A stretch of 64,000 nt of DNA from Chromohalobacter nigrandesensis. GTDB taxonomy: Bacteria; Pseudomonadota; Gammaproteobacteria; Pseudomonadales; Halomonadaceae. A model generated the notes under the pieces. The model saw nothing but the letters and a program-made list of their open reading frames with translations. It had not been told where the DNA came from and ran no database searches. Positions 59,765 to 64,000 of the stretch are shown here, piece after piece (position 1 is the stretch's first letter; every line of letters starts with the position of its first letter). Where the stretch lies: NCBI RefSeq assembly GCF_023061285.1, contig NZ_JAKGAM010000008.1, positions 62,001 through 126,000 on the forward strand, read 5' to 3'. The position numbers and the translations under genes are program-made.

Positions 59765-60790
59765 TCAAGTCGATGAGGGAGAGTCGAGCGCGGCGCGTGC
59801 GGCGTCGAGCATGCGCTGGGCTTCGTCGACCTGGCCATACGCGGCCTCGAGGCTGGCGGCATCGCCATGGCGCTGGGCATGCGTGACTTGTTGGCGAGCC
59901 TTGCGCAGTGCCTGCTCGGCCGCCTTGACCGCCATGCGGCGATGGTGCGTGGCAGTGGTCTCGGCACGCGGTGCCTGTGCGTCGCCGAGTTGCCGGTCAA
60001 TATCCGTTAGACGCGCGGTCAGTGTCTCGGCGCGTTCATCGAGCGCTCGGCTTGCCTCGGCGTCCAGGTCGCCGCGCTGGCGTTGACGTTCCACGCGCTT
60101 GAGTCCGGCAACCAAGGTTGCCCGTGTCGCCTTGAGGGCCGTGGTATCCACGCTGGCGGTGTCGTCCTGTTGCGTCGATTGCGCAGGGGCCGTCTCACGC
60201 TTGGCTTTTGCCGCCACGGCCGCCTGGCGACGTTCGCGCTTGCGGCGTTTCTCCTCTGCCTGGCGGGCAAGGCGCTGCTGACGTGCCTCGTAGCGTTGGC
60301 GTCCCAGTGTGGCACGCTTGGTCAGGTAGGCGTCTTGCTGGGCCTGGGTACTTGCCGCGAGCCATTCGGGGTGCGGCAGAATGTCGATACAGTCCACGGG
60401 GCAGGGCGCGACACACAGCTCGCAGCCGGTACATTCGGACTCGATCACCGTATGCATCTGCTTGGCAGCGCCGAGGATGGCGTCTACCGGGCACGCCTGG
60501 ATGCACTTGGTGCAGCCGATGCACTCTGCCTCGCGAATGTACGCCACTTTCGGCGATTGCGCCGGTTCCGCGAGGGGTTGACGCGACTGGCCGGTCAGTT
60601 CGGCGAGTCGCACCATGGCGGCCTCGCCGCCGGGCGGGCACTTGTTGATCGCTTCACCCGCCGCGATGCCTTCGGCATAGGGGCGGCAACCGGGATGCCC
60701 GCACTTGCCGCATTGCGTCTGCGGCAATTCGGCGTCGATACGCTCGATGCTGATCTCGGCTACCAGATGATTTCCGAATGAACGGGACAA
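59765..60790 (-). CDS. Soluble RnfB-like iron-sulfur protein
   Basis: Residues 10-80 form the RnfB-type four-cysteine Fe-S domain ([20 protein letters not shown]), and residues 85-145 two [4Fe-4S] ferredoxin motifs ([32 protein letters not shown]). The N-terminal membrane helix of E. coli RsxB is absent, and the frame upstream is closed by a stop. A charged, coiled C-terminal tail of about 170 residues follows, rich in Arg/Ala/Gln. The start appears to be TTG at 60790. No other rnf gene is nearby, so its partner is unknown; rnfB-nth pairing is known in gammaproteobacteria. Confidence 0.85.
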
Positions 60791-60956
60791 ACGATGACTC
60801 CGGGGTCGAAGAATCCGCCATTATAAACCTTCATGATCGCTACCCCAACGCGAATGCGCGACCGCCGCCGCGGACTCACATGATGTCAACCATGCCTTGT
60901 TGCCAATGTGAGTGAGGAAAGAATGTTTTAAATTCCCCTCCATTACGCTATAAATG

Positions 60957-60975
60957 ATAACAGTTATCGTTATCA
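60957..60975. promoter_or_regulatory. Fur box upstream of the FecI-type sigma gene
   Basis: GATAACAGTTATCGTTATC matches the 19-bp Fur consensus GATAATGATAATCATTATC at about 14 positions. It overlaps a candidate promoter whose -10 box is TATAAA (60950-60955). It lies 41 nt upstream of the sigma factor start, consistent with iron repression of the locus. Confidence 0.85.
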
Positions 60976-61016
60976 TTGAAGGTCTTGATATCTCTACAAG
61001 GCAGGAGGCCGGGGCA

Positions 61017-61526
61017 GTGGATGCGTGTGAATGGAAAACTGAACTCAAGGATATCTTCGCCAACCACCGACCGCGACTTTGCTCCCTGGCAGCGAGAATC
61101 CTGGGACCGGATCAGGCAGACGATGTCGTGCAGGATGCCTATCTCAAGATTTCACAGGCGCACTCCGCCTTCGCCATCAAGCAGCCGTTGGCCTATGCCT
61201 GCCGCGTGGTGCGCAACCTGGCGATCGACCGGCAGCGGCGCTGCCAGTTCGAGTCGACCCTGTTCAGGGCAGAGGAGCAGGGCGCGGCGGTGGCCGCGCC
61301 GACAGGCTCTCCCGAAGCGATCGAGATCGATCGCGAGGAATTGGTGCGGGTCGCGCAGGCGCTGGACGAATTACCCGAGCGCACGCGTCGGGCCTTCGAG
61401 CTGTATCGCATGGGCGGACACACCCAACGTGACGTGGCCGAACAGCTAGGGGTATCCACCACACTGGTCAATTTCATGATCCGCGATGCGCTCAGTCACT
61501 GCCGGGATTCGTTGCACGCCGGTTGA
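61017..61526 (+). CDS. FecI-type ECF sigma factor
   Basis: A 169-residue extracytoplasmic-function sigma factor. The region 2 segment (DDVVQDAYLKISQAHSAF, then the NLAIDRQRR block) and region 4 HTH (HTQRDVAEQLGVSTTLVNF) match FecI-type iron-starvation sigmas. The GTG at 61017 has a strong AGGAGG site 8 nt upstream; the frame continues upstream through the Fur box and is not coding there. It probably transcribes the siderophore genes that follow. Confidence 0.92.
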   Translation: MDACEWKTELKDIFANHRPRLCSLAARILGPDQADDVVQDAYLKISQAHSAFAIKQPLAYACRVVRNLAIDRQRRCQFESTLFRAEEQGAAVAAPTGSPEAIEIDREELVRVAQALDELPERTRRAFELYRMGGHTQRDVAEQLGVSTTLVNFMIRDALSHCRDSLHAG

Positions 61527-61609
61527 TCCCAGCCGTCTCATCCTCATTCGCCGTTTTGTTACACTGGTTTCAAGGCCGTTGACAGGGCCGGCTACCTTGG
61601 TGAGACGTA

Positions 61610-61816
61610 ATGACGATAATGAACGATAACGATGCCCTCTGGCATACGGCGCTCGGCTGGCTCATGCGACAGCATGACAGCGACCTGGATGAGGCGGAGC
61701 GCGAGGCCCTGCATGCCTGGTTGGCGGCCTCCGCCGAGAATCGAGCGGCGTATCGAGAAGCCGAGCGATTATGGACGCTGACGGGCCTGATCCCGCCCGC
61801 TGATGAGCGTCACTGA
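61610..61816 (+). CDS. Stand-alone FecR N-terminal (DUF4880) domain
   Basis: A 68-residue protein that corresponds only to the cytoplasmic N-terminal domain of FecR-type anti-sigma regulators: ALGWLMRQHDSDLDEAEREA, LHAWLAASAENRAAYREAER, LWTL. It has no membrane helix or periplasmic sensor, and ends shortly after the conserved LW. FecR N-domains contact FecI-type sigmas, so it may bind the neighbouring sigma directly, but without the signal from an outer-membrane receptor. An ATG 9 nt further in (61619) is a possible start. Confidence 0.78.
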   Translation: MTIMNDNDALWHTALGWLMRQHDSDLDEAEREALHAWLAASAENRAAYREAERLWTLTGLIPPADERH

Positions 61817-61893
61817 CACTTTCCTGCCTAATTCGCCCCCCTTTCCCGCCGATCTCTTTTGGCCGATCGCTAAATTCCGATCTTCCTCACTCG

Positions 61894-61906
61894 TCATTTG
61901 AAATGA
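61894..61906. repeat. Perfect 13-bp palindrome in the mbtH leader
   Basis: TCATTT-G-AAATGA lies 51 nt upstream of mbtH. It overlaps the weak Fur-like site and might be part of an operator. Confidence 0.55.
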
Positions 61907-61918
61907 GAAGCAATCACA
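61904..61918. promoter_or_regulatory. Weak Fur-like site upstream of mbtH
   Basis: TGAGAAGCAATCACA resembles the 7-1-7 Fur arrangement on the left half (5 of 7) but poorly on the right (4 of 7). It may be a real but degenerate Fur site or chance. Confidence 0.3.
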
Positions 61919-61957
61919 TCCGCTTCTTTGCGTTCATGCAATGACGAGGTGAGCATC

Positions 61958-62203
61958 ATGACAAGCTGTTTCGATCGCGAGGACGGGGTTTTCCGCGTCC
62001 TGGTCAATCACGAAGAGCAGTACTCCCTGTGGCCAGAGTGGAAGGCGATTCCCGAGGGCTGGGCGGATACCGGTGTACTCGGCGACAAGGCAACCTGTCT
62101 CGACTACGTGGAGAAGACCTGGACCGACATGCGCCCGCTCTCGCTACGCCAGTGGATGGACGAGCAGCAAGCCGTTGAGGCGGAGCAGGCGGATGCAGGT
62201 TAA
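61958..62203 (+). CDS. MbtH-like protein
   Basis: MbtH-like proteins bind adenylation domains of nonribosomal peptide synthetases and support their activity. The signature [20 protein letters not shown] is followed by [10 protein letters not shown] in this 81-residue protein. It is strong evidence that an NRPS lies downstream. Its 3' end overlaps the thioesterase start by 11 nt. Confidence 0.95.
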
Positions 62204-62933
62204 GCGGTTGAAACTGCTCTGCCTGCCCTGTGCCGGCGCCAGCGCCACCATGTATCTACGCTGGAAGCGCCGGTTGCCCGCGTGGATCGAGGTGCACCCC
62301 GTCGAACTACCCGGGCGTGGAGAGCGCCTGAGTGAACCGTTCACCGACGACTTCGAAGCCCAGGTCGTGCGACTGTGCGAAGAGCAGGCGACGCGGTTGC
62401 GCGGCGACTTTGCCCTGTTCGGCCACAGCATGGGGGCGCTACTGGCTTACGGTATGGCGGTTCGCTTGCGCGATGTGGGGCGCCCTCAACCGCAGATGCT
62501 ATTCGTTTCGGGAAGCGCGGCACCCTCCATACGTGACCCTGAGCGATTGGCGGGTCTGGACAATGACGAAGCCCTGATCGCGGATTTGCGCCGACAGGGA
62601 GGCACGCCTGAGGAAGTGTTCGAAAGCCCTGAGCTGTTGCGCCTCACTCTCGACGCGTTGGCAGCAGACTATCGGCTTTGCCGACGTTTCCGCTATCGCG
62701 GTGGGCCGCCGCTCGACTATCCGCTACAGGCCTTCGCGGGGCACGACGACGATATCGAGCGCGAGCGCCTGGAGGCGTGGCGACGCGAAACGGGCGGGGC
62801 GTTTTCGCTGGACTGGTTAGAGGGAGGGCACTTCTTCATCCGCCACCAAGAGGGGAAAGTGCTGGCGACTATCGAACGGGCGCTGGCCCGACGGCTAGAG
62901 GAGGAGCCTCATGCAGCGCCTGCGGCTAGCTGA
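62193..62933 (+). CDS. Type II thioesterase of an NRPS locus
   Basis: A 246-residue alpha/beta hydrolase that removes wrong acyl or aminoacyl groups from NRPS carrier domains. It has the nucleophile motif GHSMG (serine at about residue 79), the start [17 protein letters not shown], and GGHFFI as the catalytic histidine block, like GrsT/TycF. The ATG at 62193 overlaps mbtH. Confidence 0.93.
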
Positions 62934-63579
62934 AAAGGCGCCCACGGGGCTCGAGGTCTGGTGCTTGGCGCTCGACTTGAACGCCCCGGTAGTCGATGAG
63001 GACTATCGACTGCTGAACCGAGCCGAGTGGCAGCGCGCCCAGCAGTTTCGACATCACGCCGATGTGGTGCGCACCGTGGCGACACGCGCTGCCCTGCGGC
63101 GGCGGCTATCGGCACACACCGGCGTGGCGGCAGACAAACTGGTGTTCACCCATAACGCCTACGGCAAACCACGGCTGAAAAGCGTTGATGGGCCTGCCTT
63201 CAATGTCTCGCATTCCGGTGATGTCGCCCTGATCGCGCTAGCTTCCGGTGGTGCGGTGGGGGTCGATATCGAGCGTCGTCGACCCGAAGCCGAGCTTGTG
63301 TCACTGAACGACCTGGTTCTCTCGCCGAGCGAGCGACGCACTCTCGATAGCGGCGGCGCCGTGTTGCCCTTCATCGAGCGCTGGGTGATTAAAGAAGCCG
63401 TGCTCAAAGCCTTGGGGCTGGGGATTGCCGACCATCTGCAGGCACTCTCGATCACTCCCTCATTAGGGCCGCCAACTACTTACCATCTTGAGCACTCGCT
63501 TAGCGTTTCATCACCTTTGCGCGCATGGCCGCTGCCGGCGCCGAGTGGCTATGCCGCCGCCCTGGGATATGTCGATTGA
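62911..63579 (+). CDS. Sfp-type 4'-phosphopantetheinyl transferase
   Basis: A 222-residue enzyme that loads phosphopantetheine onto carrier proteins. The Sfp/EntD motifs are intact: FNVSHSGDVALIALA, VGVDIE and WVIKEAVLKALG. The start overlaps the thioesterase by 23 nt. As this locus encodes its own PPTase, it probably activates the siderophore NRPS. Confidence 0.93.
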   Translation: MQRLRLAEKAPTGLEVWCLALDLNAPVVDEDYRLLNRAEWQRAQQFRHHADVVRTVATRAALRRRLSAHTGVAADKLVFTHNAYGKPRLKSVDGPAFNVSHSGDVALIALASGGAVGVDIERRRPEAELVSLNDLVLSPSERRTLDSGGAVLPFIERWVIKEAVLKALGLGIADHLQALSITPSLGPPTTYHLEHSLSVSSPLRAWPLPAPSGYAAALGYVD

Positions 63580-63654: not shown

Positions 63655-64000
63655 ATGAATAGCCATAATGCAACATCAACACAACACACTACCGCCGACT
63701 TCGAGCGACAAGGACCTGCCGATTCGGAGCTACCCATTGTGATGTCGCCCGCTTACCCAGGGCAGCCGCTGTTGGAAGCCTTTGGCGATTTACGTGCTGA
63801 TATTGAGTCCCTGGTGACCAGAGGCGGCGGGGTGCTGCTAAGAGGCTTCAATGTCCCTACCGTTGACGATTTTCAGCAGTTTGCCGCAGCCTTTGGTCAT
63901 CCACTATTGAGTTATGAGTTCGCCTCAACGCCACGCTCAGCGGTGTCATCGGGCATTTATACCTCCACCGAATACCCCGCCCACCAACATATTCCCCTCC
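63655..64000 (+). CDS. TauD/SyrP-like Fe(II)/2-oxoglutarate dioxygenase (partial)
   Basis: Only the first 115 residues are in the window. The N-terminal segment (IESLVTRGGGVLLRGFNVPT, FQQFAAAFGHPLLSYEFAST, TSTEYPAHQHIPL) resembles TauD/TfdA-type dioxygenases such as SyrP, several of which beta-hydroxylate aspartate or other residues in siderophores. The HxD metal motif would begin at or after the window edge, so the active site cannot be checked. A CAGGAG site supports the ATG at 63655. Confidence 0.88.
   Translation, partial: MNSHNATSTQHTTADFERQGPADSELPIVMSPAYPGQPLLEAFGDLRADIESLVTRGGGVLLRGFNVPTVDDFQQFAAAFGHPLLSYEFASTPRSAVSSGIYTSTEYPAHQHIPL

Follow-up and report, generated by a model that had tools for sequence, protein, structure and literature searches.

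In this study, we report that an ECF sigma factor gene at the head of a siderophore locus of Chromohalobacter nigrandesensis is followed by a small gene encoding a stand-alone DUF4880 domain (the N-domain of FecR), and that this short gene is, judged by its pattern of conservation, a conserved gene under purifying selection and not a remnant. By analogy with published FecR-type fragments, the short protein is perhaps a co-expressed brake and holder of the adjoining sigma factor, a tentative reading to which we give close to an even chance. The DNA analysed, referred to here as the window, is a stretch of 64,000 nucleotides. Papers are cited from excerpts of their text.

The sigma gene and the short DUF4880 gene

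The sigma gene (61017..61526, forward strand) encodes 169 amino acids from a GTG start located behind AGGAGG, and its product contains the Pfam domains Sigma70_r2 and Sigma70_r4_2. When scanned from an in-frame upstream ATG at 60954, which adjoins the Fur-like box described below, it scored 204.8 bits against NCBIfam NF005448 (cut-off 190). The closest orthologue, in locus L038, is also 169 residues long. The initial annotation had called the protein a FecI sigma; it was confirmed as an ECF sigma factor, but shares only 29% identity with FecI of E. coli and is PvdS/OrbS-like (old ECF09) as judged by locus layout and promoter type. Its region 4.2 presumably resembles that of PvdS. One cysteine is present among its last 30 residues, and the C-terminal four-cysteine cluster of the OrbS type is absent. 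In one family genome (G256, L047:7285-7803) the orthologous sigma gene carries an early in-frame stop with loss of the last residues, and the short gene is intact.

The short gene lies 83 bp downstream on the same strand (61610..61816) and encodes 68 amino acids, or 65 from ATG 61619, the start common to its relatives; both frames exist as first described. A Pfam scan matched residues 14-54 to DUF4880 (PF16220, E 2.4e-12) with 46.9 bits, over the curated cut-off of 25, and found no other Pfam family in the protein. The highest Kyte-Doolittle value of any 19-residue segment was only -0.005, so the protein is without a membrane helix. The earlier description of a minimal regulator lacking a membrane or sensor domain therefore holds, DUF4880 being the only Pfam domain and no hydrophobic stretch being present. 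Inspection by eye of the 132-bp gap 3' of the short gene revealed no FecR remnant in any of its three forward frames.

A fold search was needed because a search of the PDB by sequence alone, with the short family as query, gave no match at E 1. The AlphaFold model consists of three helices (mean pLDDT 77.7), and its top PDB match in Foldseek was the cytoplasmic domain of PupR, 5cam_B (prob 0.85, E 2.0, TM 0.67/0.82). VIA-align likewise placed the PupR anti-sigma domain on top (Z 8.2, rmsd 1.6, 53/54 residues), against Z 4.3 for the next unrelated row, values to be read with the tool's warning that Z below 13 can arise by chance for small helical bundles. The PupR structures matched were 5cam and 5cos, and the short protein is predicted to adopt the three-helix fold of the PupR-type cytoplasmic domain. 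Alignment with FecR of E. coli MG1655 showed that FecR residues A16, W19, W39, G61 and P64 are kept in 14 of 14 sequences (FecR included), that the short proteins have W in place of L13 and Y, F or H in place of W50, and that the short protein extends to about FecR residue 70. The window protein contains no cysteine, and H22 is the one invariant histidine among 25 short proteins.

Conservation of the short gene in the Halomonadaceae

A profile search gave DUF4880 matches at E 0.001 in at least 60 of 275 Halomonadaceae genomes, where counts are lower bounds and the candidates of the window genome were all scored. Among the matches over the cut-off, at least 26 were open frames of fewer than 100 codons, the rest having 194 to 526 codons. 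Besides the window, 25 short loci were fetched, and in 24 of them the gene order is sigma factor, short protein, MbtH, thioesterase, phosphopantetheinyl transferase, as in the window. The other one (G190, locus L061), a weak short match of 24.8 bits with neither an adjoining sigma gene nor other genes of the locus, is the 26th short frame and was left out of the set of 25 loci used below. Searching with the sigma factor identified an orthologue in at least 26 of the 275 genomes at E 1.3e-48 or better, followed by a gap to 7.5e-32. The short gene adjoins the sigma gene in 25 of these 26 genomes; the 26th (G204) has a contig end 74 bp 3' of its sigma match. The short gene is also present in the same-genus genome G010 and in a named record of Chromohalobacter marismortui. 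For 10 of the 25 family genomes the short protein was the sole DUF4880 match among the scored candidates, while at least 15 hold further matches.

The length of the short protein is near-constant across the 25 loci and 20 columns are invariant among the 25 proteins, window included. In the tail C-terminal to the Pfam domain, L57, T58, G59, P62 and D65 are invariant, besides W55. The dN/dS of the window gene (Nei-Gojobori) was 0.10-0.29 against 23 of 24 relatives, the remaining comparison being saturated, and values among closer pairs ranged from 0.01 to 0.45.

A decayed or mis-sequenced fecR was rejected on the 25 loci, the dN/dS values and the near-constant frame length, and retains next to no probability. 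That full FecR proteins occur elsewhere in the family is the sole point in its favour; the 20 invariant columns, a dN/dS well below 1 and the single supported tree group described below all count against it. A premature end of the frame through sequencing error, which the initial annotation had named as a possible flaw, does not apply since the length is conserved in 25 loci. Its suggestion that the regulator could be decayed likewise runs against the purifying selection, the invariant linkage and the occurrence in both Halomonadaceae and Burkholderiales-type genomes.

Absence of the usual partners from the window genome

No second DUF4880 was found when all 132 first-look candidates of the window genome were scored, and a search of the whole genome for the FecR domain PF04773 found nothing at E 0.001. 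The sole STN domain sits in what reads as a PilQ-like secretin. Neither a membrane FecR nor a signalling receptor is therefore apparent in the genome. Thus neither a full fecR elsewhere nor a TonB receptor with a signalling extension, both of which had been proposed as things to look for, was found in the window genome, and stand-alone DUF4880 genes beside a sigma gene in siderophore loci, also proposed, were found in 25 family loci as well as in Burkholderiales-type loci.

Siderophore locus and promoter elements

Downstream of the short gene and on the same strand are genes for an MbtH-like NRPS accessory protein (61958..62203, or from GTG 61949; PF03621, E 4.4e-23), a type II thioesterase (62193..62933; PF00975, E 2.8e-44) and a 4'-phosphopantetheinyl transferase (62911..63579; PF01648, E 1e-12). 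These are followed by an open reading frame for a TauD/TfdA-like dioxygenase, a probable Asp beta-hydroxylase (63655..64000, running past the window), which was named by reading from its likeness to a cluster excerpted from PMC10291192 and to the annotated cluster in L164. Large NRPS frames are located beyond the window, 3' of the dioxygenase.

A Fur-box-like site, GATAACAGTTATCGTTATC (60956..60974, forward strand), is located 5' of the sigma gene, behind a TATAAAT -10-like element identified by eye. It agrees with the consensus at 14 of 19 positions, whereas 200 shuffles of the 300-bp region gave a mean of 10.3 and a maximum of 13. The earlier claim that the pair heads a siderophore locus with a Fur box is thus borne out in the form of a Fur-like box. 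The box is rated moderate, because a scan of the window for Fur boxes with up to three mismatches found none. Boxes exceeding their own shuffle maximum were obtained in three of 25 loci (window 14/19, L038 17/19, L041 14/19), and in the other 22 they did not exceed their shuffles. A scan of 60700-62300 found no sigma-70 promoter. The certainty of Fur control is lowered by these last two results; for the window genome, such control of the sigma gene is considered likely on the sequence of the box.

Between the short gene and mbtH lies the site TAAAT-N16-CGT (61871..61894, forward strand), which we take to be the iron-starvation promoter of PvdS and OrbS. Such a site was found within 330 bp 3' of the short gene, before mbtH, in all 25 loci, and its spacer was always 16, although 15-17 were allowed in the search. 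By chance, 0.67 sites would be expected in the window. The site at 61871..61894 was moreover the sole exact match in the genome to two extended promoter patterns, and it is a probable target of the adjoining sigma factor, the sigma and short genes both being upstream of it. When up to two mismatches were allowed, 43 and 31 matches were obtained against 27 and 32 in a backward control, and therefore no further target of the sigma factor in the genome could be named.

Occurrence outside the Halomonadaceae

Scanning named genomes with the family alignment identified the sigma and short gene pair in Methylibium, three Duganella, Halomonas (Halomonas llamarensis, L066, among the matches), Vreelandella, Billgrantia and Chromohalobacter; matches in Marinicaulis, Pseudomonas and a gammaproteobacterial MAG were all full-length. 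Among 294 genomes of the family of Duganella G642, at least 11 have a short-protein match with an E-value no higher than 4.8e-19, in frames of 82-107 codons. At least 13 weaker DUF4880 matches in this sample comprised 12 frames of 327-531 codons and one of 114 (G724). The latter (L129:9383-9727) runs into a hydrophobic stretch and is flanked by a sigma gene and a frame of receptor size; it differs from the short family and appears to be a genuine truncation of FecR of a different kind. Of 369 genomes sampled evenly across the class, at least eight had a match at E 1e-6, and since all of these besides G000 and G251 have frames of at least 320 codons, the short form is not a general feature of the class.

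All 15 distinct short loci outside the Halomonadaceae are in Burkholderiales-type genomes, and in 14 of them a sigma gene is next door. The exception is L127 (L127:9256-11156, G851), in which a short DUF4880 gene without a sigma gene of its own lies directly 3' of a full fecI-fecR pair. Plasmids of Eleftheria terrae and of a Variovorax carry sigma gene, short gene and mbtH, the Variovorax mbtH being identified by reading. Neighbouring genes include IucA/IucC siderophore synthetases in L081 and L121, NRPS in L123 and L124, mbtH in L124, a thioesterase in L125, and a TonB receptor and a PepSY protein in L126; the neighbours listed for L122 include no evident siderophore gene.

The strict pattern TAAAY-N16-CGT was present within 450 bp 3' of the short gene in seven of the 15 outside loci. 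Placed by eye, it is just 5' of the TonB receptor gene in L126 and near a receptor frame in L128, and in L127 it precedes a frame that resembles the L126 PepSY gene. Near-matches were seen by eye in L083 and L164, none was present in L080, and in L120 and L122 a match occurs only at a distance of several kb. In L164 (Eleftheria terrae, L164:6880-7270) the gap between short gene and mbtH also contains, by eye, a tandemly repeated 8-base unit, TGCATAGC.

Phylogenetic analysis

In a tree of 94 sigma factors, the 39 with a short partner formed one clade (support 98/80) that required one label change. The branches just outside it were given by the preceding sigma tree, in which two rows were mislabelled; they are L165 (Methylosinus), L166 (Azospirillum) and L167 (Azotobacter), the last together with L162. 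The L165 and L167 sigma factors are 53% and 47% identical, respectively, to that of the window, and no DUF4880 was found within the 10 kb fetched for each. The L166 sigma has a full FecR three genes away. The stretch L166:1366-5501, on an Azospirillum plasmid, holds together a full FecR, a siderophore receptor and a sigma factor 52% identical to that of the window, and is possibly an intermediate layout.

A tree of 82 DUF4880 domains, built on few columns, placed the 39 short domains in one group (support 100/98), together with the full-length L085 and L086 on a long branch. Its full-length rows came from similarity searches and not from a random draw, labels follow frame length, and of the 53 loci fetched, 43 yielded a complete FecR frame and ten were dropped. 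Because L085 and L086 fall inside the short group, two label changes are needed and the short domains were not recovered as strictly monophyletic, which lowers the certainty of a single origin. The simplest reading of the two trees is a probable single origin of the short domains and their partnered sigma factors.

Comparison with known systems

Like FecI-FecR-FecA of E. coli, the window pair combines an ECF sigma factor with an adjacent FecR N-domain protein in which W19 and W39 are kept; unlike it, the pair comes without a membrane helix, periplasmic FecR domain or STN receptor. With PvdS-FpvR of Pseudomonas aeruginosa it shares a peptide-siderophore iron-starvation sigma, the promoter consensus TAAAT-N16-CGT, and a DUF4880 protein near the length of FpvR1-67. 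As described in excerpts of PMC9249621 and PMC4256889, FpvR sits in the membrane and is gated by FpvA, whereas the fragment in the window is a gene of its own beside the sigma gene. The excerpted PMC8908255 reports for OrbS and MbaS of Burkholderia (old ECF09) that the sigma gene heads an NRPS siderophore locus, that orbS is repressed by Fur and that ECF09 genes are often beside mbtH; the same text describes both as lacking an adjacent anti-sigma factor, in contrast to the DUF4880 neighbour of the window sigma. OrbS also has the four-cysteine C-terminal cluster, an on-board shut-off device according to excerpts of PMC9023288, which is absent from the window sigma.

The siderophore cluster of Halomonas llamarensis is a locus of the same kind, in which, in the excerpted PMC10291192, 'DUF4880 domain-containing protein' appears as a name in the gene list. 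For Stutzerimonas, an ECFsigma-DUF4880 module has been described in which the two genes are likewise adjacent and lie ahead of a gene for a siderophore receptor, but which was counted as cell-surface signalling (PMC13037486, excerpts). DUF4880 also occurs in PMC11687729, the third of three open-licence papers found to mention it. In the potashchelin cluster, excerpts of PMC7100376 give orf11 a regulatory role and list orf13-15 as the genes for MbtH, thioesterase and transferase; orf12, between orf11 and orf13, may be the short DUF4880 gene. A search of open-licence papers, as distinct from subscription journals, returned no paper on the free-standing FecR N-domain as a topic, judged by titles and opening abstract lines among the matches listed.

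Possible function of the short protein

We propose that the short protein would be a soluble, free-standing FecR-type sigma-binding domain acting on the adjoining sigma factor. At low iron, Fur would leave the sigma promoter, the sigma factor and the short protein would be made together, and the sigma factor would direct transcription of the NRPS operon from the TAAAT-N16-CGT site. The short protein would bind the sigma factor in the cytoplasm, probably at region 4, without a membrane anchor, receptor or proteolysis step, would set the sigma level needed before the operon fires, and would quench left-over sigma after Fur has shut the promoter. Fur control, co-transcription, binding, its direction and the kinetics are steps that we infer. 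That the short protein binds the sigma factor in the cytoplasm without receptor input is the most likely reading.

The probabilities given to the main readings are based on gene linkage and on fragments described in the literature. A brake is slightly favoured over an activator, by analogy with FpvR1-67 on one side and FecR1-59/68 on the other. A 67-residue FpvR fragment binds and inactivates PvdS and FpvI (PMC9249621, excerpts), FpvR1-89 binds, inhibits and co-purifies with PvdS (PMC4256889, excerpts), and a Leptospira FecR-like N-domain alone is an anti-sigma factor in log phase (PMC13118517, excerpts). We lean to a brake because the sigma is PvdS/OrbS-like, OrbS and MbaS lack an adjacent anti-sigma factor, and FpvR1-67 inhibits PvdS. 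Since the OrbS cysteine cluster is missing, there would also be room for a separate shut-off device. Counted for a brake are the linkage in 25 of 26 genomes, the promoter-like site in 25 of 25 loci, the dN/dS, the PupR-like model, the missing partners, and sigma factors of like kind that have no partner (OrbS, MbaS, L165, L167). Counted against it are the activation of FecI by FecR fragments, the L127 short protein without its own sigma gene, and the fact that Fur-like boxes exceed their shuffles in only three of 25 loci; moreover, a brake without a release device would be odd.

The opposite direction, a pro-sigma role in a pathway that would be permanently switched on, is less probable than the brake but not far behind it. 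Here the free FecR N-domain, normally a product of proteolysis, would be needed for stability, folding or RNA polymerase binding of the sigma factor, and Fur alone would decide. Excerpts of PMC9249621 report that FecR fragments of 59, 61, 65, 68 and 116 residues induce fecA transcription without ferric citrate and that FiuR1-91 raises fiuA expression without ferrichrome. The short protein ends close to where such fragments do, near FecR residue 70, with A16, W19, W39, G61 and P64 kept in 14 of 14 sequences, and a dependence of the sigma factor on it would readily account for purifying selection having kept the short protein once the sensor was lost. However, the partnerless sigma factors and the inhibition of PvdS by the FpvR fragment speak against an activator, and of the four positions of induction-negative FecR mutants (L13, W19, W39 and W50; PMC9249621, excerpts) only W19 and W39 are kept. 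In its widest form, likewise doubtful, this reading is that a short-domain subfamily of Halomonadaceae and Burkholderiales-type genomes, probably of one origin, might encode the proteolysis fragment as a gene, an obligate partner of an active, Fur-fed sigma factor, with the pathway hard-wired in the cytoplasm.

It is unlikely that the short protein is a cytoplasmic sensor whose grip on the sigma factor is switched by a ligand such as iron, a siderophore or precursor, or a protease adaptor. The invariant tail columns extend beyond the Pfam domain, so that the tail probably does something, and excerpts of PMC9023288 report control of OrbS after translation by cytoplasmic iron; yet the window protein has no evident metal site, with no cysteine and H22 as the one invariant histidine, and G61 and P64 of the tail are also present in FecR itself. 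Service to another sigma factor or to a full FecR elsewhere in the genome is more improbable still, for although L127 and the further DUF4880 matches in at least 15 of 25 family genomes would fit it, the window genome is without a FecR domain or second DUF4880 and the linkage to the adjoining sigma gene is unbroken in the family.

Whether a free N-domain activates, as with FecR, or inhibits, as with FpvR, has so far been argued from engineered fragments. A natural gene that equals such a fragment makes the question testable on a natural protein pair (169 and 68 residues) for which a single target promoter is conserved. Sigma factors of siderophore loci of the mbtH type, a group described as lacking an anti-sigma factor, can thus have a small partner that is easily overlooked, and short-domain genes are found beside an iron-starvation sigma gene in siderophore loci of numerous halophiles and of some bacteria from soil.
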